Assembly (NCBI RefSeq): GCF_010501075.1
Contig: NZ_QVMN01000007.1
Coordinates: 251,511 to 315,510, forward strand
Length of the DNA: 64,000 nt
Direction: 5' to 3'
From: Dysgonomonas sp. 25
Lineage (GTDB): Bacteria; Bacteroidota; Bacteroidia; Bacteroidales; Dysgonomonadaceae
Shown here: in pieces, positions 10,317 through 64,000 of the stretch
How positions within the stretch are numbered: position 1 is the first letter of the stretch
Layout: each line of letters starts with the position of its first letter
Notes under the pieces: generated by a model
What the model was told of the DNA's origin: nothing
Database searches by the model: none
What the model saw: the letters and a program-made list of their open reading frames with translations, nothing else
Position numbers and translations under genes: made by a program

Positions 10317-12032
10317 ATGAAATATCTGAATCGTTTTGCCGATAAGATTTCCAACAGCAGCCGCCTGCAGCTATGGCTGGCTATTGCTTTAGTCACTGCC
10401 CTATCGGGCATTATGCTGATTGCCTACAATCCGATTTATCTTATTCCGGATTCGGTTTTCCATATGAACAGGATGCTGGTCTTGGCAGAAGCTATACAAA
10501 ACGGTGATTTCCCTACTTATTTAGACTATAATTCGATCGAAGGATATGGCTATTTCTCTAAGGCTTTTTATCCCGATTTCACATTAATACCCTTTGCGGT
10601 ACTTGCTCTCTTTACAGATGTCGTTTTTGCCTATAAGTTTTTGTTGTTTTCGACATCTGTTATTTGCGGAATAACAACTTATATGGCAGTCAAACGGATT
10701 TACAAAAGCGCTTATTGTGCTATTCTTGTATCGTTGCTGTTTACTTTTTCGTCCTATAAAATATTTCAGACATTCTACTTTTCCGTTATTCAGGAAGTGT
10801 TGACCTTCATGTTTATCCCCCTCGTTATCTGGGGAGTATATGAAATTATTGCAGGTAATTACAAAAAATGGTATATCCTCACCATCGGCTTTGTATTTAT
10901 AACCCTTACACACCTGATGACCACCGTTTTGCTGGCGATGTTTGTCTTGCTGTTCCTCATCATTTATTACAAAAGATTCATAGCCGAACCTGCAAGAATC
11001 AAGTATCTGGCAATTGCGACAGCTATCTGCATTGTACTGTGTGCCTATTTCATCTTTCCCATGCTGGAACAAATGTTGTCCAATTCGTTCTACTACCAAG
11101 ACAAACCGCTTTTTACCACTATGGGCTATGGCGCTACCATTAAGCAGCTTTTCGAAGGTATTACCAACAATATGGCCAACGCCGACCACTCGTATATCCT
11201 GCCTAAAATCGGCGGACTTCTAACCGGTCTTATCTGTTTGAGGTTTTTCATTAAGGGAAAATCGAAATCGCTCAGAAGTGTCGATATTATGGTTGTTTTC
11301 GGATTAGTATTAGTTATGCTGAATCTTCACAATATCAACTGGAATATTTTTCCTTTAAACAAATTTATCTTCATTCAATTTCCGTGGCGATTTCTGAAAT
11401 ACGCGACAATCTTTTTTGCTATTGCAGGAGGTTTCTATTTGAGTCGATTGGTAACGGACAATAAGCGAAAAATGGCATCGGTACTGTTTCTTTCTGTCTT
11501 TTTATCGGCGACTTTCGTATTCGATGCCGTCGACTACCGCGACATGCGTTCTTGGGAAGGGATAGCTCTCAGCGACCTGACGTCAAAGGGAAAGGTAAAA
11601 GAGCAACTGACATTGGGTGGCGGAGCGGAATATCTCCCCTCGAAAATGCCGACGCAAAACTATCCGTTCGAGAGAGGCGTAATAGTAACCAAACAGCAGG
11701 AAGAAACCTTATTGAGTAATTTCAAGCGGGAAAAAGGCAACATCACTGTCGATGTAATTACCCAAGGAGATAAACTAGAAATGCCTCTGACTTACTACAA
11801 AGGTTATAAAGCAAGCTTGGATGGAAAGACTATAACTGTCCAACAAAGTGAAAACGGCTTAATAGAAGTACCTATCGACAGGTCGGGAGAGATAAAAGTA
11901 TGGTATGGTGGCACTACAATACAGACAATCAGTTGGATTATTTCTCTTATTTGCGCAATTCTGTTTTGTGCCTATATCTTTTATTTCCAATATATACGAC
12001 AAAAGGCAACGATGCAAAAAGCTATAGCGTAA
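10317..12032 (+). CDS. GT-C-like polytopic membrane protein (PTPS-related / YfhO-like)
   Basis: 571 residues with roughly 11-12 hydrophobic helices in the first 390 residues and a final one near residue 545, around a soluble region. The segment LIPDSVFHMNRMLVLAEAIQ followed by NGDFPTYLDYN and YGYFSKAFYPDFTL in the first extracytoplasmic loop is typical of the membrane family annotated as 6-pyruvoyl-tetrahydropterin-synthase-related, which resembles GT-C lipid-linked sugar transferases. The Asp in PDSVFH is a candidate catalytic residue by analogy. It probably glycosylates an envelope component, but no substrate is known. The 3' end overlaps the convergent ATL gene by 11 bp. Confidence 0.7.
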   Translation: MKYLNRFADKISNSSRLQLWLAIALVTALSGIMLIAYNPIYLIPDSVFHMNRMLVLAEAIQNGDFPTYLDYNSIEGYGYFSKAFYPDFTLIPFAVLALFTDVVFAYKFLLFSTSVICGITTYMAVKRIYKSAYCAILVSLLFTFSSYKIFQTFYFSVIQEVLTFMFIPLVIWGVYEIIAGNYKKWYILTIGFVFITLTHLMTTVLLAMFVLLFLIIYYKRFIAEPARIKYLAIATAICIVLCAYFIFPMLEQMLSNSFYYQDKPLFTTMGYGATIKQLFEGITNNMANADHSYILPKIGGLLTGLICLRFFIKGKSKSLRSVDIMVVFGLVLVMLNLHNINWNIFPLNKFIFIQFPWRFLKYATIFFAIAGGFYLSRLVTDNKRKMASVLFLSVFLSATFVFDAVDYRDMRSWEGIALSDLTSKGKVKEQLTLGGGAEYLPSKMPTQNYPFERGVIVTKQQEETLLSNFKREKGNITVDVITQGDKLEMPLTYYKGYKASLDGKTITVQQSENGLIEVPIDRSGEIKVWYGGTTIQTISWIISLICAILFCAYIFYFQYIRQKATMQKAIA

Positions 12033-32935: not shown

Positions 32936-33007
32936 TAGTAAATAAGTTTACGAGAAAAGGGTAACACTGAGTTTCTCAGAGGAGACACTGAGGTACACTG
33001 AGAAAAA

Positions 33008-33780
33008 GTAACTCCATAAAAAAAATACTCCAGAGCGATGGAGGTAAGTAGAGAAATGTTACTTTTTATTGTCACTTCGAACGAAGGAGAGAAGTCTCTT
33101 CCCGATAAAGCGACGAGATGCTTCGGTTCACTCAGCATGACAAGAACCATTGAGCTGCACTGAGAAAAAGTAACTCGATAGAAAACGCCCGAAAGAAGTA
33201 TACTTGTGTTACTTTTTGAGAAAGTGTCCTTAGAAAGACTTGGTGCTCGTGGTGGTTAAGTAATTATTCAGTTGACGAGTAAACAAGTTTACAAGTAGAC
33301 AAGAAAAGTAACTCCATAGAAAAAATACTCCAGAGCGATGGAGGGAAGTAGAGAAATGTTACTTTTTTATTGTCACTTCGAACGAAGGTGAGAAGTCTTT
33401 TCCCGATAAAGCGGCGAGATGCTTCGTTTCACTCAGCATGACAAGAACCATTGAGCTGTACTGAGAAAAAGTAACTCGATAGAAAACGCCCGAAAGAAGT
33501 ATACTTGTGTTACTTTTTGGGAAAGTGTCCTTAGAAAGACTTGGTGCTCGTGGCGGTTAAGTAATTATTCAGTTGACGAGTAAACAAGTTGACAAGTAAA
33601 GTAACTCTATAGGAAAATACTCCAAAGCGATGGAGAGAAGTAGAGAAATGTTACTTTTTTATTGTCACTTCGAACGAAGGTGAGAAGTCTCTTCCCGATA
33701 AAGCGGCGAGATGCTTCGTTTCACTCAGCATGACAAGAACCATTAAGCTGTACTAAGAAAAAGTAACTCGATAGAAAATA
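33008..33780. repeat. Tandem array of a 300-bp non-coding unit, 2.6 copies
   Basis: Units start at 33008, 33308 and 33601 (periods 300 and 293 bp) and the third stops near 33780. Each starts GTAACTC(C/T)ATA and contains a CTCC-GGAG hairpin, AAATGTTACTTTTT, a long imperfect inverted repeat from TTGTCACTTCGAACGAAGG to GCTTCGTTTCACTCAGCATG, AAAAAGTAACTCGATAG, AAGTATACTT and GTTACTTTTT. Units differ by scattered single substitutions and short indels. A partial unit end (ACTGAGAAAAAGTAACTC) precedes the first. No ORF is conserved across the units. Confidence 0.92.
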
Positions 33781-53379: not shown

Positions 53380-54531
53380 TCAATCCCGGACACAACGGAC
53401 CGAAAGCCCGTTCCAGACGAAAGGAGAAGGAACAATAGTCCCATCAGTAAGCGAAGGCGTATTATTTATCAATTGGCGGTAGCGGTAAGACGTTCCGACG
53501 ATAGTAGACGACCACCAATAGGCATGCCTACCAAACCAAGTAGCATAGAGATGACTGTAGTCGACATCGCCGGACGGCACGGCGTCAAAGCCGGATGGCT
53601 CCGGAGTACCGCCGTCGCAGCAGCCCCACGAAAGAATAGCATTTCCATTGGCATCGGTGTAAAACTTTCCATATTTGTCCGCTTTGCGCATTTTCCGGGC
53701 GGCATCAGCTGCACCACCAAATACATCAGCCAGCTTATCCCACTCGTCATCGTCGGGCACGTGCCAGCCGGTAGGACACACAGACTCAAATAATGGTAAA
53801 CCAAAGACGAAGTAATGCAATCCATATTCTTTCGCAAAATCCAGATAGCTTGTTTCTGGGTTGTTCTGAAGCACACCCCAGGTATCGCCTATCCCCCAGA
53901 TATTGGCAGGGATATTGTTTCCCGTCAGGTCTGATACGCTACTAATAACCGCTGTTGTACCGCCTGCAATACTCAACTTGGCTCTATTACCTAAGGGATT
54001 CCCGTCTCTGTTGCGGGTAACGTACAAGTTGCTGGTAGTCCAATAAGCGCCATCGCACAGGTCTACACCAAACCACCGGGCATTGTAGACGTTGCCGTCG
54101 ATGTCCGTCATCGTTATATCTCTTCTTCCCTGATAGGGCGGTATAAGCGGTTCCCACTTTTCACCATCCCAGATAAATATACCCGGATCGACCGCCGGCT
54201 GGAAAACATTCGCTATACATGTAGGTTCCATCTCCTGCATGTTGTAGACCAACAGGCCGAGGTGCTCGTCTTTGTCCCAACTGTCACTGGCTTCTGTGCC
54301 GTCGATGGTTTGTGCCAGCGTCTTGCCGGCAGGGATAGTCAGTGATGTCAATTTCACCCGCGGAAGCGCAAGGCCTTTGTCAGCATTGCCTCCAGCTAAA
54401 TTTTTCAGGTCGAGCAAAGCGCCGGCATTAGGCTGTTGCCCGCTACCGATAGTCACCTGCGCTTGCAGGTTGATTGTTGTTGTGAATAAGGCTAACAGTA
54501 CGATAGCCTGCGTTAAGATTCTTTTTTTCAT
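53380..54531 (-). CDS. FISUMP-domain surface or secreted protein
   Basis: 383 residues from the ATG at 54531, which gives a signal peptide (AIVLLALFTTTINLQAQ); the frame continues upstream through palindromic repeat DNA without meaning. After the signal comes VTIGSGQQPNAGALLDLKNL, the N-terminal motif of Bacteroidota surface proteins of this type, and a linker. The C-terminal half from about residue 160 is a fibrobacter-succinogenes-major-paralogous domain: ARWFGVDLCDGAYWTTSNLY, CPTGWHVPDDDEWDKLA, AYWWSSTIVGT and NGLSVRCVRD. This domain is related to formylglycine-generating-like and C-type-lectin-like folds. The role is unknown. It is a lone gene between two repeat-rich or terminator regions. 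Confidence 0.88.
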   Translation of the reverse strand: MKKRILTQAIVLLALFTTTINLQAQVTIGSGQQPNAGALLDLKNLAGGNADKGLALPRVKLTSLTIPAGKTLAQTIDGTEASDSWDKDEHLGLLVYNMQEMEPTCIANVFQPAVDPGIFIWDGEKWEPLIPPYQGRRDITMTDIDGNVYNARWFGVDLCDGAYWTTSNLYVTRNRDGNPLGNRAKLSIAGGTTAVISSVSDLTGNNIPANIWGIGDTWGVLQNNPETSYLDFAKEYGLHYFVFGLPLFESVCPTGWHVPDDDEWDKLADVFGGAADAARKMRKADKYGKFYTDANGNAILSWGCCDGGTPEPSGFDAVPSGDVDYSHLYATWFGRHAYWWSSTIVGTSYRYRQLINNTPSLTDGTIVPSPFVWNGLSVRCVRD

Positions 54532-54774
54532 GTTATAAAAGAATAAGCCACCTCCCCCTGCCCCCACAAGAGGGGGTAACAGAAAAAGATGAAGTGAATA
54601 ATATGTTTGATTGAGCCCCACCAAACCTCCCCGTGGGGGAGGCTAAGAGAAGGATATATTTTCGTTTTTTGTTGAATGGTGGTGCAAACCCATTTCCCCC
54701 TCTGGGGGATAAAGGGGGCCGGTTATTGTCATCCCGATACGGAGCGAGGGATCTCGGTGCGTTCTTACTAATTG

Positions 54775-54794
54775 CCTCCACTTTTAAGTGGAGG
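54775..54794. repeat. 20-bp perfect palindrome
   Basis: CCTCCACTT and AAGTGGAGG are separated by TT. It has the same 9-2-9 form as the palindrome at 54873. Confidence 0.8.
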
Positions 54795-54872
54795 TCTCGA
54801 AAGGTTGGTTCAAAAATGGCTTTAGCCAAATATCTTTTGACTAAAGTCATCTCCTGAAAGATGCAATCATAT

Positions 54873-54892
54873 CCACGCCTTAAAAGGCGTGG
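54873..54892. repeat. 20-bp perfect palindrome
   Basis: CCACGCCTT and AAGGCGTGG are separated by AA, the same 9-2-9 geometry with a different outer sequence. Confidence 0.8.
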
Positions 54893-54912
54893 CAACATTA
54901 GACTATTAGCTT

Positions 54913-55010
54913 TGTAGGGGGCAATAAACATTGCCCCGTATATGTCGGATATTACGGGCGAATATTTATTGGCTCGACTACGCTTCGCCGAACGATGTTT
55001 CGCCCCTACA
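54913..55010. repeat. 98-bp inverted-repeat element (MITE-like)
   Basis: TGTAGGGG (54913-54920) and CCCCTACA (55003-55010) form terminal inverted repeats. Inside are GGGGCAAT-AAAC-ATTGCCCC (54918-54937), ACGGGCGAATATTTATTG and a GGCTCGACTACGCTTCGCC segment. No ORF; no clear target-site duplication was seen. Confidence 0.55.
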
Positions 55011-55305
55011 TGGATTTTGTTGTTGACTGTTGACTGATAACTGTTGACTGAATAGTGCTGCTCACTGTTGACTGAAAAATCCCGCTTCTCCTCACGGAGA
55101 AGACGGGACAAAATGGGGGTTCTTCCCCTGACATTAACACAAGCAATTTGGCACCCCCTCCCTGCCTCCCCCATTAGGGGAGGAGATAGGAAAAGGGTAT
55201 ATATTTTTACTCCCCCTCTGTTGGAGGGGGACGGGGGGAGGTGAATATTTTTTGAAAAAACTACCCTGAAAATTTGGTGGCCTAAGAAATAATCGCTAAA
55301 TTTTC

Positions 55306-55326
55306 GTGTGTGTGTGTGTGTGTGTG
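55306..55326. repeat. (GT)10 dinucleotide microsatellite
   Basis: Ten GT units plus a final G, 310 bp before rsfS and outside any gene. Confidence 0.95.
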
Positions 55327-55590
55327 CACGTAGATAACAGAATATATCATATTAGAATACAATATATTAACTGAAAAAATGGTCTTATTATATCTGTTTT
55401 TTAGCACGATATTTGTGTTGTATGATACTGCAAAGAAAGTACTTTTTATTGACAAATACACCATTTGAAAGAAAGAAAATAGTCAATCGTCACAATCAAA
55501 AGCCGGAAATTTATTATCTCAACCGATAGCTTTTTCCCTCTTATTCAACACTTATACCTGACATACAACTATTCATAATCAAAAAAAGAC

Positions 55591-55598
55591 TATATTTG
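55591..55598 (+). promoter_or_regulatory. -7 box of rsfS-ftsH-cdsA
   Basis: TATATTTG matches TAnnTTTG, 39 bp upstream of the rsfS ATG. It drives the first gene of a closely spaced three-gene cluster. Confidence 0.6.
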
Positions 55599-55636
55599 TA
55601 GGCTTAATTTAATAATATCGGAACAAAATATACTGA

Positions 55637-55996
55637 ATGGACAACGCTAAAATCATTGTAAACAACGTCGTGGCAGCTTGCCAGGAGAAAAAAGCCCGTA
55701 ACATTGTAATCGTAGACATGACAGAGATGATAGGAACCATCTGTCAATATTTCGTAATATGCGAAGGACGCAGCCCTACACAAGTATCGGCAATAGGTGA
55801 GGAAGTTATCGATTCACTCAAAAAGAACATGAAAGAACGCCCTATCGCAAGCGATGGTGTAGTGGAAGGACGTTGGGCAGGAATAGATTATGGTACGGTT
55901 ATTGTTCATATATTTTTACCCGAATTGCGCGAGTTTTATGACATCGAACATTTGTGGGCTGATGCGCAGTTGGAAACGATTCCCGATATCGACTGA
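55637..55996 (+). CDS. rsfS: Ribosomal silencing factor RsfS
   Basis: 119 residues, the standard length. The family blocks are AACQEKKARNIVIVDMTEM, YFVICEGRSPTQVSAIGEEV, VVEGRWAGIDYGTVIVHIF and FYDIEHLWADA. It binds ribosomal protein L14 and blocks subunit joining in poor growth conditions. ftsH follows 71 bp later and cdsA after that, the common Bacteroidales order. Confidence 0.96.
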   Translation: MDNAKIIVNNVVAACQEKKARNIVIVDMTEMIGTICQYFVICEGRSPTQVSAIGEEVIDSLKKNMKERPIASDGVVEGRWAGIDYGTVIVHIFLPELREFYDIEHLWADAQLETIPDID

Positions 55997-56067
55997 CAAC
56001 TTTTCATCTGAAAGTTTGTTCATTTAGTAGAATTATTTTGTCGAATTTTAATTTTTCCAGTTAACAT

Positions 56068-58107
56068 ATGGATAACTACAACAAAGAAGAAGGTCAGAAA
56101 AAGCCACGAATACCAACCCCCCAGAAACCGAAAAGCTCCTTTAATCTCAACTGGTTATTCCTGTTAATCTTTGCCGGAATAATCGGAGTTTATTTCTTTT
56201 CGCAGAGTGCATTCTCGAAAGAAGTTGCCTGGTCGGATTTTCAGGGGTATGTCAAGAAAGACTATATCAACAAGATTGTTGTTGACGGAAAATCGCGTAC
56301 CCTGCGCGCCTACGTGCGTAGCGAATCAATAAACGAGGTATTCAAAGACGAAGCTAAATCCGAAAACCTGCCAAAAAATCCTTTTATCTCCGTTAAGATT
56401 CCTTCGGCCGATAAATTTTCGGACTTCTACGACCAGATAAAGAAAGATCACAACTACAATATAGACGTCAGCTACGAAGAGAATGTCAGCATTTTCGACT
56501 TTCTCATCGGTGCACTGCCATTCCTGCTGCTTATCGGGCTGTGGGTATTTATGATGCGCCGTATGTCCGGCGGAGGAGCCGGTGGTGGCGGCGGAGTATT
56601 CAGCGTAGGAAAATCCAAAGCACAATTATACGACAAAGCGTCCGATCTGCGTGTGACATTCAAGGATGTTGCCGGATTGTCGGAAGCAAAAGAAGAAATA
56701 GAAGAGATAGTAGAATTTCTCAAAAACCCTTCGAGATATACCGAAATCGGGGGTAAAATACCGAAAGGCGCCTTGCTTGTAGGCCCTCCGGGAACAGGTA
56801 AAACGCTTTTGGCAAAAGCGGTTGCAGGCGAAGCCAATGTACCGTTTTTCTCGATGTCGGGTTCCGACTTTGTAGAGATGTTTGTCGGCGTTGGAGCTTC
56901 GCGTGTGCGCGACCTCTTCAAGCAGGCTAAGGAAAAATCGCCTTGTATCATCTTCATCGACGAGATAGACGCCATCGGCCGTGCCCGTGGCAAGAATCCG
57001 AACTTCGGCTCGAACGACGAACGCGAGAATACATTGAACCAGCTCCTGACCGAGATGGACGGCTTCGGTACCAATAGCGGTATCATCATCCTCGCGGCAA
57101 CTAACCGTGCCGATATTCTGGACAAAGCACTCCTGCGTGCGGGACGCTTCGACCGCCAGATAAATGTCGATTTACCTGACCTCAATGACAGAAAAGCGAT
57201 ATTCAAAGTACACCTTCGTCCTGTGAAAATAGACGACAGCGTAGATGTCGATTTCCTTGCCCGCCAGACGCCGGGATTCTCGGGAGCTGACATTGCCAAT
57301 GTGTGTAACGAAGCGGCTTTGATTGCTGCCCGTAAAGGAAAGAAAATAGTACAAAAAGAAGACTTCCTGAATGCTGTAGACCGCATCATCGGGGGGTTGG
57401 AAAAGAAAAATAAGGTTACAACACGCGACGAGCGCCGCACGATTGCTATTCACGAGGCGGGACACGCTACGTTGAGCTGGTTCCTCGAGCATGCCAATCC
57501 GTTGGTGAAAGTTACGATTGTTCCCCGCGGAAAAGCATTGGGAGCAGCATGGTATCTGCCGGAAGAAAGGCAAATCACCACCAAAGAGCAGATGCTGGAC
57601 GAAATGTGTGCCTTGCTCGGAGGACGCGCCGCTGAAGAGGTCTTTATCGGACAAATATCTTCGGGTGCAGTCAACGACCTCGAACGTGTAACGAAGCAGG
57701 CTTACGCGATGATTTCCTATATGGGGATGAGCGACAAGCTGCCAAATATCAGCTACTACGATTCGGCCGATAATTACGGCTTCACAAAGCCATACAGCGA
57801 CGATACGGCCCTGCTTATCGACCAGGAGGTGCAGGCGATGATTAGCGAACAGTACGAGCGTGCTAAGCAGTTGCTTCGCCAACATTCGGACGGACATCAT
57901 GCCTTGGCTGACAAACTGATGACCGAGGAAGTTATCTTTGCCGACGACCTGAAAAAGATTTTCGGTTTACGTCCGTGGGTATCCCGTTCGGATGAGATTA
58001 TGAAAGAAAACGAAGAAATCGTGAAAGAGGTTGAAGAAGAGAAAGCCAAAGGCGAAGATGCGCCGGGCATTCTCGCACAGCCGGGACAATCGGAAGAGAT
58101 AGAATAA
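56068..58107 (+). CDS. ftsH: ATP-dependent zinc metalloprotease FtsH
   Basis: 679 residues. Two membrane helices (about residues 27-48 and 147-165) flank the periplasmic domain. AAA+ region: Walker A GPPGTGKT at 239-246, Walker [37 protein letters not shown]. The zinc site is H462-E463-A-G-H466 with Asp537 as third ligand. A Gly-rich stretch ([10 protein letters not shown]) follows the second helix, and the acidic tail is [15 protein letters not shown]. It degrades membrane and some soluble proteins. cdsA follows 21 bp later. Confidence 0.98.
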
Positions 58108-58128
58108 TAATATAACAGTCATTATATT

Positions 58129-58980
58129 TTGAAGAAACTGCCAAATATTGTCGTCCGCATCCTTGCCGGAATCGTATTTGTAGGATTGTTGCTTGCCGGA
58201 ATCCTGATTAATGAATTCACTTTTGCTGCTATATTCGCCCTGCTCACAGGGTTGGCTCTGTACGAATTTTATGGGTTGATAGAAAAGGCCGCCAATGTCA
58301 AAGTATCGAAATGGCTGAATATCATCGGGGGGCTTCTTTTATTTGGCGGAGTGTTTTGGTATAGCAATTCGGTAACTTGCTTCAGACCGGATTTGTTTTT
58401 CTACCTTACACCTTATGCCATTTTCTTATTAGTCCTCTTCGTAAGCGAGTTGTATCGGAAGCATGCCAATCCGTTGCAATCGCTCGCCTATTCCTTCTTA
58501 GGGCAACTTTATATTGCTCTACCTTTTGCGTTGACTAATAAGTTGGTGCTGACTGCCTCTTTCTACACCAGTTACAACTATATCTTCCTTTTAGCTATTT
58601 TAGTTATTATCTGGGTCAACGATTCGTTCGCTTACCTCACGGGTATGACTTTCGGTAAACATCGCCTGTTCGAGCGCATATCGCCAAAAAAATCGTGGGA
58701 AGGATTCTTTGGAGGGTTAGCTTTCGCCATAGGAGCATCCTTGGTGCTGGCATATTTTTATCCCGAGTTGTCTACTCCTAAATGGATAGGCTTTGCAATT
58801 GTAACGGTTGTATCCGGCACATTCGGCGACTTGGTAGAATCGCTTTTCAAACGCACATTGGGTGTCAAAGATTCGGGTAACATGATTCCGGGGCATGGCG
58901 GTATCCTCGACCGCTTCGACAGCACCATTCTTGCCATTCCGGCTATTGTAATATATCTGGAGGTGATAAAGATTTTTTAA
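58129..58980 (+). CDS. cdsA: Phosphatidate cytidylyltransferase
   Basis: 283 residues from a TTG at 58129. No ATG occurs in frame until about residue 170, so a non-ATG start is required; the TTG gives a normal N terminus (KKLPNIVVRILAGIVF). Seven or eight membrane helices. The CDP-alcohol-type signature is SPKKSWEGFFGG followed by GTFGDLVESLFKRTLGVKDS and GHGGILDRFDS, with the key Asp residues. It makes CDP-diacylglycerol for all phospholipids. It closes the rsfS-ftsH-cdsA cluster. Confidence 0.95.
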   Translation: MKKLPNIVVRILAGIVFVGLLLAGILINEFTFAAIFALLTGLALYEFYGLIEKAANVKVSKWLNIIGGLLLFGGVFWYSNSVTCFRPDLFFYLTPYAIFLLVLFVSELYRKHANPLQSLAYSFLGQLYIALPFALTNKLVLTASFYTSYNYIFLLAILVIIWVNDSFAYLTGMTFGKHRLFERISPKKSWEGFFGGLAFAIGASLVLAYFYPELSTPKWIGFAIVTVVSGTFGDLVESLFKRTLGVKDSGNMIPGHGGILDRFDSTILAIPAIVIYLEVIKIF

Positions 58981-59050
58981 ATATCCGCTTTCTTCGTCCT
59001 CGCTCTTAAAAATGAGACTATTCCTTTTTCTCAGAAAATGCAAAACTTCT

Positions 59051-59917
59051 CTAACTCCTTATCTTATCGAACCCTTCGCCATAAACCCCACGCACGGTCG
59101 TTTGCGAGATAAAGGCTTTTTCATCGATTTTTTGTATCAGGCGGAACATCTGTATCGATTCGGAACGCTTAGCTAATACAACCACCACCTTTATCGGTTT
59201 ACCCGTATAAGCTCCCGTACCGTCCAACAGGGTACAACCTCTATGCAGTTCAAAATTAATAGCTTTCGCTATTGTCTCATACTTATCAGAGAAGATAAAG
59301 AACTGAACCGATTGACGGAATCCATTGATAACCATATCAATGGTGTATGTCATCACACCCATTACGATAAGGGCGATAATAATCTTCTGATAATCATGGA
59401 AAACAAAATAGGAGCAACAAATAATAGTAAAGTCGCAAAGTAACATTCCGCGACCGAAAGAGATATTCTTATATTTATTGATGATGGCAACAACAATATC
59501 CGTACCGCCCGTACTCCCGTTTGCGCTAAATACAAGCGCTATGCCGGCTCCACACATCATCCCCCCTACTACACCCGAAAGTGTCGGTTCAGAAGCCATC
59601 AGAGGCTCTTTAAAGATTAATTGAGCAATCGTAATGAGGGCCGTAAGAACTACTACCCCGTATATTGTTTTGGCGAGGAATTTTATGCCTAATATCTTCA
59701 AGGCAACCAAAAGCAAGGCGCAGTTAGTGAAAAAATATACATATTGCAGTGGTAATCCGGTACTGTATTCAATCAAGAGGGCGATACCGGTCAGTCCCCC
59801 TGTTACGATTCCACCGGGCTTGATAAAGCCTATCAATCCAACTGCGTATAAGACAAGACCGACAGTTATTAACAGATAGTCTTTCCAATAAAAATCTTTT
59901 AAGTATCTGCGAGGCAT
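59051..59917 (-). CDS. YitT family membrane protein (DUF161/DUF2179)
   Basis: 288 residues from the ATG at 59917. A start 28 codons upstream is ruled out by the TATCTTTG promoter box at 59943-59950, which lies inside that extension. Five or six membrane helices in the first 200 residues (YLLITVGLVLYAVGLIGF, GIVTGGLTGIALLIEYSTGL) form the YitT_membrane domain. The C-terminal DUF2179 domain (ELHRGCTLLDGTGAYTGKPI, VVLAKRSESIQMFRLI) is soluble. The function is unproven; transport or signalling is suspected in the family. Confidence 0.92.
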   Translation of the reverse strand: MPRRYLKDFYWKDYLLITVGLVLYAVGLIGFIKPGGIVTGGLTGIALLIEYSTGLPLQYVYFFTNCALLLVALKILGIKFLAKTIYGVVVLTALITIAQLIFKEPLMASEPTLSGVVGGMMCGAGIALVFSANGSTGGTDIVVAIINKYKNISFGRGMLLCDFTIICCSYFVFHDYQKIIIALIVMGVMTYTIDMVINGFRQSVQFFIFSDKYETIAKAINFELHRGCTLLDGTGAYTGKPIKVVVVLAKRSESIQMFRLIQKIDEKAFISQTTVRGVYGEGFDKIRS

Positions 59918-59942
59918 ATGGTTAGATATTATAATTTCGACG

Positions 59943-59950
59943 CAAAGATA
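59943..59950 (-). promoter_or_regulatory. -7 box of the YitT gene
   Basis: On the minus strand TATCTTTG, an exact match to TAnnTTTG, lies 26 bp upstream of the chosen ATG and decides the start. Confidence 0.7.
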
Positions 59951-60004
59951 AGTAGGATTTTCCATTTCATCTCTCAAAAAAGAGAGAAATAAGAACAACA
60001 ATAT

Positions 60005-60964
60005 TTATTTTTTATCCGAAATCAAACCATCCCTCATCAAGTCTTGTATCATCTTGTGCGTAAAGAGTTTGCTACCTCTGTTATTCATATGCATCGAGTT
60101 GTAGAAGTAGTCTTTATGATAACATATCGAATCATTGGAATAATCAAAAAACGGGATCGCATATTTGTCCGAAAATTTTTGATAGATAGCAATAACGGAG
60201 TCCTTATTTGATATAAATTTCTGTCCCTCGATATACTCGGGTGTATAAACAAAAATCAACGGAATATCTTCTTTTTTGGAATCGATAATAAAATCTTCAA
60301 ATAACCTTACAGAAGTCGTATCGATATAGGCTTTGTACGACTTCATATTGCCTTGTGCTCTCTCTAATGCGCCATCCCATTCTTTTTCGTATCCTTTATA
60401 TCCTTTCTCGCGGAAACGGGCATCAGGATTAACATAATAATTCAGTCCCGAACGGATAGCATCGAAACGCCCGATATAGCGGTATAAAGGGATAATGAAA
60501 TCGGGACAAGTAAAACCTTCGTATGTCAATGTTGTCTCTGCTACATCTTTGTTCCATAGCATATAAGGCAGGAATTGCCCCAAATTATATAAATCAGGAC
60601 GTTTCTCAAGCGTAAAGACATCCAAGGCATAAATAATTGCTTCCGGCTTCGGGTTATGTCGCAGATACTCACGATGTCTTAAACTTTGCAGATAGAAGTT
60701 ATGAGCATTCAGACCAAAATTATAGGCCGGGTGCCCGGTTTCTTTTTCTATCATCATAGGGTCAATATGGATCCATGCACGCGAAGAACCATAGATAAGA
60801 TAATCGGAATTGACCTGACCAGTATAAATATCTGTCCATGTTTCTATTTCACCATCTGAATAAACAGAATGAGCCAAGCCGTTTGAAATAAACCAATCGG
60901 CAGGATAAGCCAATACGATTATCGGGCAAACAAATATCAATAGTTTTTTTAGTAGCTTCTTCAT
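60005..60964 (-). CDS. SGNH-like exported acyl-transfer partner protein (module A)
   Basis: 319 residues. The first 29 form a membrane anchor or uncleaved signal (KKLLIFVCPIIVLAYPADWF), identical to that of the paralogue at 62414 except one residue. The extracytoplasmic part carries an SGNH-hydrolase-like nucleophile block YLIYGSSRAWIHIDP near residue 58 and a late His block YFYNSMHMNNRGSKLF, typical of AlgJ/DltD-like proteins that work with MBOAT acyltransferases. It lies 6 bp downstream of an MBOAT gene. I infer transfer of an acetyl group to an envelope or extracellular polysaccharide. Outside the anchor and these motifs it shares little with its paralogue. Confidence 0.75.
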   Translation of the reverse strand: MKKLLKKLLIFVCPIIVLAYPADWFISNGLAHSVYSDGEIETWTDIYTGQVNSDYLIYGSSRAWIHIDPMMIEKETGHPAYNFGLNAHNFYLQSLRHREYLRHNPKPEAIIYALDVFTLEKRPDLYNLGQFLPYMLWNKDVAETTLTYEGFTCPDFIIPLYRYIGRFDAIRSGLNYYVNPDARFREKGYKGYEKEWDGALERAQGNMKSYKAYIDTTSVRLFEDFIIDSKKEDIPLIFVYTPEYIEGQKFISNKDSVIAIYQKFSDKYAIPFFDYSNDSICYHKDYFYNSMHMNNRGSKLFTHKMIQDLMRDGLISDKK

Positions 60965-61576
60965 TCCTGCTTAGAATTGGAAATAGATGAATTGTTGCTC
61001 GCCTCCGGCAAATAAAATAATAAATACGATAATCATATAATAGAATGCCCACCGGAAGAAGCGGCTACGCTTCGCTCCGAAGAATTCCAAACCATACTTA
61101 TTTTCTCTACCTAACCATTCGACAATAAACATCAGCAAAAACATACCGATAGTTATCAAAGTTTTGGTATCATAATGAGGTGAGGTAAGTAATTCTTTAG
61201 GTATACTTGCAATGTATTCGAAAGCATGCGTCATGTTATCGGCACGGAAGAAAATCCAGGCAAAAGCAGCCAACGCAAATGTTATGCCCACATGCAGAAT
61301 ATCCTTGAACGAAGGTAATAACTTACCTTGCGCTACCACATCCAGATTCTTCCGGTTCTGCTTCATAATAATAGACGGCATAATAAACAAGGCATTCAGA
61401 CCGCCCCAGGCGATAAATGTCCAGTTAGCGCCGTGCCAGAAGCCACTGACAAGGAATATTATAAACGTGTTGCGTATCGTCTTTAACATCGTACCTCTGC
61501 TCCCTCCGAGTGGGAAATAGAGATAGTCGCGAAACCACGAAGACAAGGATATATGCCAACGCCGCCAGAACTCGGC
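60878..61576 (-). repeat. Duplicated segment, left copy (SGNH anchor, junction and MBOAT 3' part)
   Basis: This segment matches 63302-64000 at a constant offset of 2,424 bp with no indels in the parts compared. Bases 60980-61212 are identical over 233 bp; a patch at about 61280-61350 is much less similar; identity rises again after it. The left limit is where the SGNH genes diverge. The right limit is set by the window edge. Confidence 0.93.
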
Positions 61577-62407
61577 AATATCGCGCGAGAAATACGGAAA
61601 TTTGAAGTTCTGTAATAATTCAAAGCCAAGCATCCGCGCGGTTCCCAGCGCTATATCCGAATAACCCGAGAAGTCGCCGTATATCTGTATCGTAAAGAAA
61701 ATAGCCCCCAACACCAATGTACTCCCCGAGTGTTCGCCTCCATTAAAAGCCATATTGGCATATTCGGCACAGTTATCGGCTACAACAACTTTTTTGAACA
61801 AGCCCCAAAGGATTTGCTTCAAGCCATCTACCATCTTGGCGTAACGGAATGTACGTTCCTGTTCTATCTGAGGGAGTAGGTGTGTTGCCCGTTCGATAGG
61901 CCCAGCAACCAATAAGGGAAAGAAGCTGACGAACAAAGAATAGTCTACCCAGTTGCGGGTAGGCTTTATTCTATCGTTATAGATATCGAGCACATACGAG
62001 AGCCCGTGGAATGTATAGAACGATATACCAACCGGCAAAATAATACTTAGTGTGTGGATACTTGATGATAAACCGAATAGCTGCAGGAATTCCTGAAACT
62101 CGTGTATAAAGAAATTAAAATACTTAAAGAAGCCCAGAAAACAGATATTCACAATGACTGCGATAAACATCCAAGTCTTTCGTCCGCTCTTAGTCGTTGC
62201 CGTACTGACTCTTAGCCCTCCGTAATAGCAGAGAATAGTGGAAATAGCCAGCAGAAAAAGAAAACGCCAATCCCAGCAGCCATAGAAGAAATAACTGGCA
62301 ACAAGCAAGAAAACATTCTGTGCCTTTTTGTTATTCTTCAATACCAGCCAATAGATAAAAAAAACTATCGGAAAGAATATGGCAAAGTTGATTGAGTTAA
62401 AAAGCAT
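60971..62407 (-). CDS. MBOAT family O-acyltransferase, AlgI-like (module A)
   Basis: 478 residues with about 11 membrane helices. AlgI-type blocks: FNSINFAIFFPIVFFIYWLV at the start, LPVGISFYTFHGLSYVLDIY, PLLVAGPIERA, GDFSGYSDIALGTARMLG, FWRRWHISLSSWFRDYLYFP, and the invariant His in SGFWHGANWTFIAWG. The protein should move acyl groups from the cytoplasm across the inner membrane to a partner such as the SGNH protein encoded next to it. The last 200 residues are almost identical to the partial MBOAT at 63395. Confidence 0.95.
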   Translation of the reverse strand: MLFNSINFAIFFPIVFFIYWLVLKNNKKAQNVFLLVASYFFYGCWDWRFLFLLAISTILCYYGGLRVSTATTKSGRKTWMFIAVIVNICFLGFFKYFNFFIHEFQEFLQLFGLSSSIHTLSIILPVGISFYTFHGLSYVLDIYNDRIKPTRNWVDYSLFVSFFPLLVAGPIERATHLLPQIEQERTFRYAKMVDGLKQILWGLFKKVVVADNCAEYANMAFNGGEHSGSTLVLGAIFFTIQIYGDFSGYSDIALGTARMLGFELLQNFKFPYFSRDIAEFWRRWHISLSSWFRDYLYFPLGGSRGTMLKTIRNTFIIFLVSGFWHGANWTFIAWGGLNALFIMPSIIMKQNRKNLDVVAQGKLLPSFKDILHVGITFALAAFAWIFFRADNMTHAFEYIASIPKELLTSPHYDTKTLITIGMFLLMFIVEWLGRENKYGLEFFGAKRSRFFRWAFYYMIIVFIILFAGGEQQFIYFQF

Positions 62408-62413
62408 ATTTAG

Positions 62414-63388
62414 TTAATTTAATTTGAGTTGTTGCAATTCGATTCCCAATTCCCGAGAGAATTTACGGCTACCTTCAACATTAAGGTGAAGCACATTATA
62501 AAAGTATGCCGTATCGGAAGCCATAGGATCGTCAGCGTAATTGAAAAAAGGAACATCATACTCCCGGCTCACTTTCTCATAATATTGGTTTGCCTGTACC
62601 ACAGTAGCCACCACGTGATCTCTGTCCTTGTACTCGGGACTATAGACGAGTACCAATTCGATACCTGCAGCCTTACATTCTTCAATAAACTGAGTAAATA
62701 AATCTTTATATAACAAATGATTCTCGTAATCATCCTCCCATATATCACGTTTGTCATTGACGCTTTTATCGTAGGGCACCTTGCCATGAGAAAGTGTATA
62801 CCAGTGATAATACACAGGAACATAGCCCTTTCTCCTATATCTTTCTTTTTGAGGGATAAGATAATGTCTTATCGAGAATTTCAGGGCGCTGAAATCACCT
62901 ATATATCTCAGCATAGGAATATAATAATCGCATTTAGAGTAGTTAAGCCACTTGCCAATAGATTGTTGCATTTCCGAATTGAACAGCATAAACGGCAAAA
63001 AGCTCTTTTTGTCGACCTCTGATGGAGAGCGTATCGAAAGATTGTCGAGTGAAAGGACGATTGTTTTAGGCTTATCGTTATAACGTAAATATTCTTGCAA
63101 AAGCTCATATTGGATATTGAAGCGGGAGCCATCGAACGCTAAAACATAGGCTGACATATTCGTTTCCTGCTCCAATATATCCGGATCGACATGATATAAT
63201 GCCCTGGACGATCCCAGAACAAGAATATCTGTATTGATATCTCCGGAATACAAATCATTACAGATTTCGAAATTACCTACATTCTCATACGACTTTCGCA
63301 AGCCTTTAGAAATAAACCAGTCAGCAGGATAGGCCAATACAATTATCGGGCAAACAAATATCAATAGTTTTTTTAGTAGCTTCTTCAT
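62414..63388 (-). CDS. SGNH-like exported acyl-transfer partner protein (module B)
   Basis: 324 residues, paralogue of the 60005 gene. The anchor KKLLIFVCPIIVLAYPADWF is the same, then the sequences part. The nucleophile block reads ILVLGSSRALYHVDP and the late His block YFYNVLHLNVEGSRKF. Other shared points are LRYNDKPKTIVLSLD, FLPFMLFN, YIPMLRYIGDF and LVLVYSPEY, so the fold is the same although most surface residues differ. It lies 7 bp upstream of the module A MBOAT gene and 6 bp downstream of the partial MBOAT of module B. A different acceptor from module A is plausible. Confidence 0.75.
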   Translation of the reverse strand: MKKLLKKLLIFVCPIIVLAYPADWFISKGLRKSYENVGNFEICNDLYSGDINTDILVLGSSRALYHVDPDILEQETNMSAYVLAFDGSRFNIQYELLQEYLRYNDKPKTIVLSLDNLSIRSPSEVDKKSFLPFMLFNSEMQQSIGKWLNYSKCDYYIPMLRYIGDFSALKFSIRHYLIPQKERYRRKGYVPVYYHWYTLSHGKVPYDKSVNDKRDIWEDDYENHLLYKDLFTQFIEECKAAGIELVLVYSPEYKDRDHVVATVVQANQYYEKVSREYDVPFFNYADDPMASDTAYFYNVLHLNVEGSRKFSRELGIELQQLKLN

Positions 63389-64000
63389 TCCTACTTAGAA
63401 TTGGAAATAGATGAATTGTTGCTCGCCTCCGGCAAATAAAATAATAAATACGATAATCATATAATAGAATGCCCACCGGAAGAAGCGGCTACGCTTCGCT
63501 CCGAAGAATTCCAAACCATACTTATTTTCTCTACCTAACCATTCGACAATAAACATCAGCAAAAACATACCGATAGTTATCAAAGTTTTGGTATCATAAT
63601 GAGGTGAGGTAAGTAATTCTTTAGGTATACTTGCAATATATTCGAAAGCATGCGTCATGTTATCAGCACGGAAGAAAATCCAGGCAAAAGCAGCCAGCGC
63701 AAATGTTATTGTTACATGAAAAATCTCTTTTGGCGAAGGGAATAATTTACCTTGCGCCACGACATCCAGATTCTTCCGGTTCTGCTTCATTAGAATAGAC
63801 GGCATAATAAACAAGGCATTCAGACCGCCCCAGGCGATAAATGTCCAGTTAGCGCCATGCCAGAAGCCGCTGACAAGGAATATTATAAATGTGTTGCGTA
63901 TCGTCTTTAACATCGTTCCTCTGCTCCCCCCGAGTGGGAAATAGAGATAGTCGCGAAACCACGAAGACAAGGATATATGCCAACGCCGCCAGAACTCGGC
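63302..64000 (-). repeat. Duplicated segment, right copy (runs off window)
   Basis: Counterpart of 60878-61576. Differences outside the divergent patch at about 63705-63775 are scattered single substitutions, mostly silent. Confidence 0.93.
63395..64000 (-). CDS. MBOAT family O-acyltransferase (module B), 5' part outside window
   Basis: The frame is open to the right window edge, giving the C-terminal 201 residues. It begins in the RRWHISLSSWFRDYLYF block, so the Met that opens an apparent ORF at 63970 is internal. SGFWHGANWTFIAWGGLNAL with the invariant His is present. It differs from module A mainly at residues reading GKLFPSPKEIFHVTITF versus GKLLPSFKDILHVGITF. The remainder of the gene should contain the LPVGISF and GDFSGYSD blocks. 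Confidence 0.92.
   Translation of the reverse strand, partial: AEFWRRWHISLSSWFRDYLYFPLGGSRGTMLKTIRNTFIIFLVSGFWHGANWTFIAWGGLNALFIMPSILMKQNRKNLDVVAQGKLFPSPKEIFHVTITFALAAFAWIFFRADNMTHAFEYIASIPKELLTSPHYDTKTLITIGMFLLMFIVEWLGRENKYGLEFFGAKRSRFFRWAFYYMIIVFIILFAGGEQQFIYFQF

Follow-up and report, generated by a model that had tools for sequence, protein, structure and literature searches.

Organisation of the MBOAT–SGNH locus

The DNA analysed here is a 64,000-nucleotide (nt) stretch of Dysgonomonas sp. 25 (hereafter the window), which lies on a contig termed C56; a second contig of the same assembly is termed C3. At the right end of the window (60005–64000), two modules, A and B, are arranged in tandem on the minus strand, and each module comprises a gene for a membrane-bound O-acyltransferase (MBOAT) followed by a gene for an SGNH-family protein. 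The offset between the modules is 2,424 base pairs (bp), exactly as a first-pass annotation of the window had described, and the two match over 702 bp at this offset with 95.4% identity. In module A, MBOAT-A (478 residues; 60971–62407) is separated from SGNH-A (319 residues; 60005–60964) by a 6-bp junction between stop and start (60965–60970), which reads GCAGGA on the coding strand. SGNH-A comprises an N-terminal membrane helix, the anchor, and an SGNH body that is predicted to be periplasmic. In module B, the window end cuts MBOAT-B, of which the C-terminal 201 codons are present (63395–64000); the corresponding junction (63389–63394) reads GTAGGA, and SGNH-B (324 residues; 62414–63388) combines an A-type anchor with a body from a different clade. 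Both MBOAT-A and MBOAT-B terminate in the sequence FIYFQF, an instance of the acyl-shuttle motif FXYXXF.

MBOAT-A matches PF03062 (E = 9e-27, above the cut-off) and, by sequence, structures of DltB (6bug, E = 1.5e-24); its score against the DltB equivalog TIGR04091 is below the cut-off (154 versus 375 bits). His285, His325 and Tyr475 are invariant in 84/84 aligned MBOATs. The two histidines align to the conserved RWH and FWHG segments of DltB (6bug), for which His289 and His336 are given as active-site residues (PMC11035591). Three positions of the tail motif, Phe473, Tyr475 and Phe478, are likewise invariant in all 84 sequences. Apart from the two proteins of the window, the motif stands at the very end of 88 of 88 MBOATs, and one further MBOAT (L155) ends in YIYFQF.

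The AlphaFold2 models of the SGNH proteins (mean predicted local distance difference test score of 95 for SGNH-A and 90 for SGNH-B) both consist of one helix, formed by residues 2–31, followed by an SGNH-like fold. In Foldseek searches, the top match of SGNH-A was DltD (3bma, E = 2e-5), and SGNH-B matched acylhydrolases, the nearest from Bacteroides fragilis, both with modest template-modelling scores. An SGNH profile gave no match among PDB sequences at E values up to 1. All 37 aligned relatives share Ser61 and His292 of SGNH-A. The residue three positions before the histidine is Asn in all 37 (Asn289 in SGNH-A, residue 298 in SGNH-B) and Asp in the distant proteins P0007–P0009; judging from conservation, Asp278 (35/37) may serve as the acid of the catalytic triad.

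An identical tract ends abruptly within the SGNH anchor

The longest run without a difference between modules A and B spans 244 bp (60970–61213), slightly longer than the 233 bp previously reported. When one mismatch is allowed, at position 60969 within the junction, the tract extends to 296 bp (60918–61213 in module A; 63342–63637 in module B, both on the minus strand) and comprises MBOAT codons 399–478, the junction and SGNH codons 1–15. The tract thus takes in the 80 C-terminal residues of the MBOAT, with its shuttle tail, and ends half-way along the SGNH helix. Random placement of 32 mismatches over the aligned 702 bp produced a run of at least 244 bp in 2 of 100,000 shuffles.

Synonymous (dS) and nonsynonymous (dN) divergence was estimated from Nei–Gojobori counts. 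Between the two MBOATs, dS is 0.18 in codons 35–139, 0.25 in codons 278–398 and 0 in codons 399–478; codons 140–277 of MBOAT-B fall inside a run of N and could not be compared. In the SGNH genes, dS is 0 in codons 1–15, 0.82 in codons 16–30 (with just 10 synonymous sites) and saturated from codon 31. The edge of the divergence near the anchor is therefore a step and not a slope. The anchors of SGNH-A and SGNH-B agree in 28 of 29 residues, and five synonymous changes within SGNH codons 16–27 show that the DNA tract ends at codon 15 and not at residue 29. Protein-level likeness continues to the end of the SGNH helix, so the near identity earlier assigned to the 29-residue anchor holds for the protein and fails for the DNA beyond codon 15. 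As that annotation also stated, the bodies are strongly diverged (dN 0.71, dS saturated); the whole SGNH proteins are about 38–39% identical.

The B block is not merely a copied piece of A, because 25 of 606 MBOAT positions and the five synonymous anchor sites differ between them. In comparisons with Dysgonomonas sp. PF1-14 and Dysgonomonas sp. Marseille-P4361, synonymous sites were saturated in every block tested. In these comparisons the MBOAT block of codons 399–478 has dN values of 0.375 and 0.438, and the remaining two blocks of the gene have values of 0.157–0.215. The block that is identical between A and B is thus the fastest-evolving of the three against the relatives, and constraint does not explain its identity. 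On these sequence comparisons, the identical block is a recent copy and not a conserved sequence, and the MBOATs as a whole (dS of about 0.2) are far younger than the split between the SGNH bodies.

Trees, relatives and a second strain

In both PF1-14 and Marseille-P4361, the locus carries a single module in the order leuS–MBOAT–SGNH–yitT, and the SGNH body is of the A type (55–59% identical to SGNH-A, 37–42% to SGNH-B and to SGNH-C, a third SGNH encoded on C3). Shuffled SGNH cores, for which the first-pass annotation suggested a check of related genomes, were thus not observed in these two. SGNH-A-like proteins were found in 3 of 25 genomes of the genus, including that of strain 25 (E ≤ 0.001). 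In a tree of the bodies, SGNH-B, its sister SGNH-C and the protein P0003 form a clade apart from SGNH-A (support 100/99), where, as the program warns, long branches meet. In the MBOAT tree, in contrast, A and B are sisters with a path length of 0.029. We count this conflict between the SGNH and MBOAT trees in favour of conversion.

A second strain provides a further comparison. Its protein P0001 carries the SGNH-B body (4 differences in 295 residues) on an anchor that differs from that of SGNH-B in 9 of 29 residues (Fisher P = 5.8e-8) and is identical to SGNH-C in its first 21 residues. A second protein, P0005, corresponds to SGNH-A at 97%, with 11 differences in 319 residues, and has the same anchor as the SGNH-B of the window (29 of 29 residues). 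Each is encoded on an 11,861-bp contig, presumably a single one. At the protein level, and in one other strain, body B therefore bears a C-type anchor where it bears an A-type anchor in the window. The occurrence of one SGNH-B body with two anchors in two strains indicates that anchors have been exchanged between members of the array. A search with the anchor alone (residues 1–40; E up to 10, 238 candidates) returned the P0005 (SGNH-A) cluster and no third body; proteins were clustered at 90%, a level at which variants within a cluster are hidden, as is the SGNH-B of the window under P0001.

Beyond the window: contig C3 and the assembly

C56 stops 441 bp beyond the window, within MBOAT-B: a run of 124 N is followed by 317 bp of the N-terminal part up to the contig end. 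The run looks like a scaffold gap, since MBOAT-A holds 412 bp at the same place. Positions 11759–19409 of C3 (L011) repeat positions 54762–62412 of the window with 13 mismatches in 7,651 bp, of which 7.29 kb are free of differences; the repeat contains ftsH, cdsA, yitT, SGNH-A and an MBOAT gene. Eleven of the 13 mismatches fall in MBOAT codons at 62060–62234. To the right of the repeat, C3 carries SGNH-C and leuS in place of SGNH-B. SGNH-C is related to SGNH-B and lies directly behind leuS, with no MBOAT of its own before it. The further module that had been thought possible beyond the window was thus found in part, as a third SGNH that apparently lies next to MBOAT-B.

C3 agrees exactly with MBOAT-B over the 317 bp beyond the N run. 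Where MBOAT-A and MBOAT-B differ, the MBOAT of C3 follows A towards the C-terminus and B towards the N-terminus. Such a gene is expected if the two MBOAT genes crossed over and SGNH-B was lost, or if the assembler switched paths. The full order of the locus is likely leuS–SGNH-C–MBOAT-B–SGNH-B–MBOAT-A–SGNH-A–yitT. The last of these genes encodes a YitT/DUF2179 membrane protein (59051–60001, minus strand; PF02588, E = 7e-54) and constitutes the downstream flank of the module that is kept in the two relatives.

The left edge of the C3/C56 repeat lies in a dispersed intergenic repeat (54700–55640) with 109 matches in the same genome, including both copies of the stretch, some of them at contig ends; the right edge lies at the start of the MBOAT gene. 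ftsH occurs twice in this genome at 100% identity. Among the 24 other genomes of the genus, 23 contain one close copy (75–84%) and one, which is 55% complete, contains none; a genome of the genus (G003) has two further ftsH relatives at 51%. leuS is single-copy in the assembly. In the 9.7 kb to the left of the repeat, a second match is limited to a 1.26-kb part over a FISUMP gene (86%; E ≤ 1e-100). yitT was not found beside cdsA in the ftsH stretches from relatives, and synteny does not settle which left flank, that of C3 or that of C56, is correct. The repeat may reflect a true duplication, heterogeneity or misassembly. Because C3 repeats 7.65 kb almost exactly, the true length of the array can be stated only within the limits of the assembly.

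Three side observations were made. The FISUMP (Fib_succ_major) gene (53380–54624) has its 86% relative on contig C32. Further genes with a similar start lie on C3 (L011, 9455–11463), beside the dispersed repeat. Comparison of the window with itself also revealed a near-identical tandem repeat at 33004–33778, with an offset of about 300 bp and 94% identity.

Homologous recombination as the best explanation

The best explanation is that the locus is a tandem MBOAT–SGNH array in which homologous recombination, likely gene conversion, has recently equalised the MBOAT C-terminus and the SGNH anchor, while the bodies stayed diverged; we assign this interpretation a probability of roughly 0.7. It is supported by the tract-like synonymous identity, the conflict between the trees and the SGNH-B body with two anchors, and it supports the earlier suggestion that gene conversion keeps the membrane part uniform. 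Two hallmarks of gene conversion were thus observed: synonymous identity that is confined to a tract, set against the divergence of orthologues, and, at the protein level and in one other strain, one body with different flanks. SGNH-B would be an old paralogue or an arrival whose MBOAT and anchor were overwritten. Conversion would run for as long as the sequences align and halt at the bodies, and a special recombinase would not be needed.

If the array works like PatAB and Dlt, the MBOAT would charge the tyrosine of its C-terminal FIYFQF with an acyl group from the cytoplasm, probably acetyl. The SGNH protein, which its anchor helix would hold against the MBOAT, would then accept the group on its serine and deliver it to an acceptor at the surface. 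What has been homogenised would correspond to the predicted relay-and-dock part, namely the FXYXXF shuttle tail and most of the helix predicted to dock. A uniform block may allow any MBOAT copy to serve any SGNH, including SGNH-C, which is not preceded by a separate MBOAT on C3, and the bodies may act on distinct acceptors or sites. Acyl group, acceptors and MBOAT interchangeability are predictions.

A bolder extension can be formulated as a tentative proposal, to which we give clearly less than even odds. The array may provide a universal dock, in which one homogenised tail and anchor serve interchangeable SGNH bodies, strains trade anchors, and the array grows and shrinks by crossing-over inside the MBOAT genes; C3, which has the form of a deletion product lacking SGNH-B, is cited for the last of these. 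The outcome would be strain-variable acylation of surface glycans.

If the interpretation is right, recombination appears to mark, at nearly base-pair scale, the boundary between the common machinery (shuttle tail and anchor helix) and the specific part (SGNH body). As a natural experiment, the locus would bear on the question of whether a single MBOAT is able to supply several SGNH transferases; it would also point to a concrete way in which strains of Bacteroidota could come to differ in surface acylation.

Observations that weigh against recombination, and alternative explanations

Several observations weigh against the interpretation by homologous recombination. The evidence from the second strain is at the protein level only, and the placement of P0001 and P0005 on one contig is presumed from the equal contig sizes. 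The sequences fit homologous recombination with DNA imported from another strain as well as they fit gene conversion. The C3/C56 duplication in the assembly means that part of the array could be misassembled.

Other loci do not repeat the pattern. In a survey of 84 loci, 77 have a single MBOAT (E ≤ 1e-10). Thirteen multi-MBOAT loci were compared with the window, five of the remaining seven and eight stretches picked from a further table; L075 and L076, which look like L070, and the pair in G567, with a spacing of 8.3 kb, were left out. Spacings in the 13 loci range from 2.4 to 13.8 kb, and not all of them are strict tandems. By this comparison, the window shows 99.3% identity in the MBOAT C-terminus, 93% in the anchor and 47% in the body. 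In the 13 loci, a homogenised MBOAT C-terminus was found in none of 17 neighbouring pairs (48–61% nt identity), and a homogenised anchor in none of the 16 pairs with an SGNH partner (41–73%; bodies 40–56%). Three pairs (L068, L151 and L156, of which L068 and L151 seem to come from one genome or from sister genomes) are instead 91% alike in the N-terminal core of the MBOAT. Homogenised MBOATs are thus present in some of the other loci as well, with a different part of the gene affected.

Coupling between the proteins across the phylum also gives little help. The MBOAT C-terminus showed no link to the whole SGNH (r = 0.005, 418/999). The anchor was at first linked to the MBOAT C-terminus (r = 0.176, 1/499), and this link became weak after de-duplication (76 of 84 kept; r = 0.110, 23/499), where the C-terminus was the last of 14 windows; the MBOAT region changed between these tests, from residues 360–470 to 400–470 and then to windows of 40 residues. 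In that scan, the part of the MBOAT that tracked the SGNH body was windows 41–160 and not the C-terminus. Phylum-wide coupling of anchor and MBOAT tail was therefore set aside as support.

Outside Dysgonomonas, the gene context of two SGNH-A-like modules (L019 and L033) does not name an acceptor. In Flavobacterium sp. ASV13 (L019, 7640–13175), the module lies between a porZ-like gene (type IX secretion) and recO; in L033, it is flanked by a sigma-factor gene on one side and by a gene for an OmpA/PD40 protein on the other, with dnaB nearby.

Among the alternatives, an exchange of cores survives best, and we consider it unlikely. In this scenario, the A-type MBOAT and anchor would have been duplicated and a foreign SGNH-B body recombined beneath them, so that the ends are fixed and the cores exchangeable, as the first-pass annotation had also envisaged. 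The placement of the A and B bodies in different clades despite near-identical MBOATs would fit such an event, as would the different anchors of the B body, A-type here and C-type in the second strain, and the protein-level join at the end of the predicted helix. Against it, both relatives have a single module, and the contrast in MBOAT dS, 0.18–0.25 outside the tract and 0 inside, would require a recent conversion on top of the older event. Neither the anchor-only search nor the genus survey yielded a further body on this anchor, and a library of exchangeable cores was therefore rejected. No pairs of inverted repeats of at least 30 bp were found at 55000–64000, a search that did not extend to shorter sites; no recombinase was noticed by eye among the listed open reading frames around the array, and no genome search was made for one.

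Less likely still is an assembly artefact, in which the identical block and the C3 copy arose because repeats were collapsed or joined along a wrong path, or because two strains were assembled together. The ftsH–cdsA–yitT–SGNH-A–MBOAT stretch does occur twice almost without mismatches, where nearly all other genomes of the genus have one close ftsH copy; the edges of the repeat, in a dispersed repeat and at an MBOAT start, and the mixed MBOAT of C3 together with the N run inside MBOAT-B, are also what such an artefact would leave. On the other side, the B block is a separate sequence, distinct from A at the MBOAT and anchor sites given above, and relatives of SGNH-A and SGNH-B recur, with other residues, on the 11,861-bp contigs from another source. 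In addition, leuS and the clpX-side flank (save the FISUMP paralogue) are not duplicated, which speaks against a wholesale mixture of two strains. Given contig C3, the wider locus may contain an assembly artefact.

Purifying selection alone on the MBOAT tail and anchor after an old duplication is very improbable: the invariant tail residues, and an anchor whose second half keeps its protein sequence (one change) despite five synonymous changes, would agree with it, and it could still account for SGNH codons 16–30, but for the 296-bp tract it is refuted by the zero synonymous differences in MBOAT codons 399–478 and SGNH codons 1–15 and by the rapid evolution of the same MBOAT block against both relatives.

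Comparison with known systems

The pairing of the two proteins is not an undescribed system, as had been proposed, since a mechanism with an MBOAT as acyl exporter and an SGNH protein as transferase is described for PatAB (PMC12148441). In that account, the tyrosine of the FXYXXF tail is acetylated, PatB accepts an acetyl-tyrosine peptide as donor, and a model places the helix of PatB against helices 1 and 17 of PatA; AlgIJFX, WssHIFG and PatA1B1 are listed as other bacterial MBOAT–SGNH systems (PMC12148441). The modules of Dysgonomonas resemble PatA/PatB and their kin in that the MBOAT has its own C-terminal FXYXXF tail and a separate SGNH protein has an N-terminal membrane helix. They differ in that two MBOATs and two or three SGNH proteins are assembled in one array with a homogenised relay and anchor and diverged bodies. 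In addition, the module lies between leuS and yitT, in this species by way of C3 and in the two relatives directly, and not in a polymer gene cluster.

Compared with the DltB/DltD/DltX proteins of teichoic acid D-alanylation, the MBOAT aligns with DltB and the SGNH-A model best matches DltD, whereas in the array the counterpart of the DltX tail is part of the MBOAT itself. No DltA, DltC or DltX was noticed by eye beside the pair in lists of open reading frames with a minimum of 80 or 150 residues, from which a gene the size of DltX or DltC could escape, and no genome search was made for them. Repeated MBOATs with diverged SGNH partners are also present in Flavobacterium psychrotolerans (L023) and F. 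anhuiense (L068); there, the N-terminal core of the MBOAT is the most alike (91% nt identity in one L068 pair), and the C-terminus, anchor and body all diverge.

Site-specific shuffling cassettes, such as shufflons, invertase systems and integrons, operate with inverted repeats or recombination sites and a recombinase. No report of a homogenised MBOAT–SGNH array appears in the titles and abstract openings of the literature searched. A general precedent is concerted evolution, in which gene conversion keeps bacterial paralogues alike, as in tuf or rRNA genes. The array shares with it the tract-like homogenisation of repeats within a genome; it differs in that the membrane part alone is homogenised here, whereas the enzymatic part is old and diverged.

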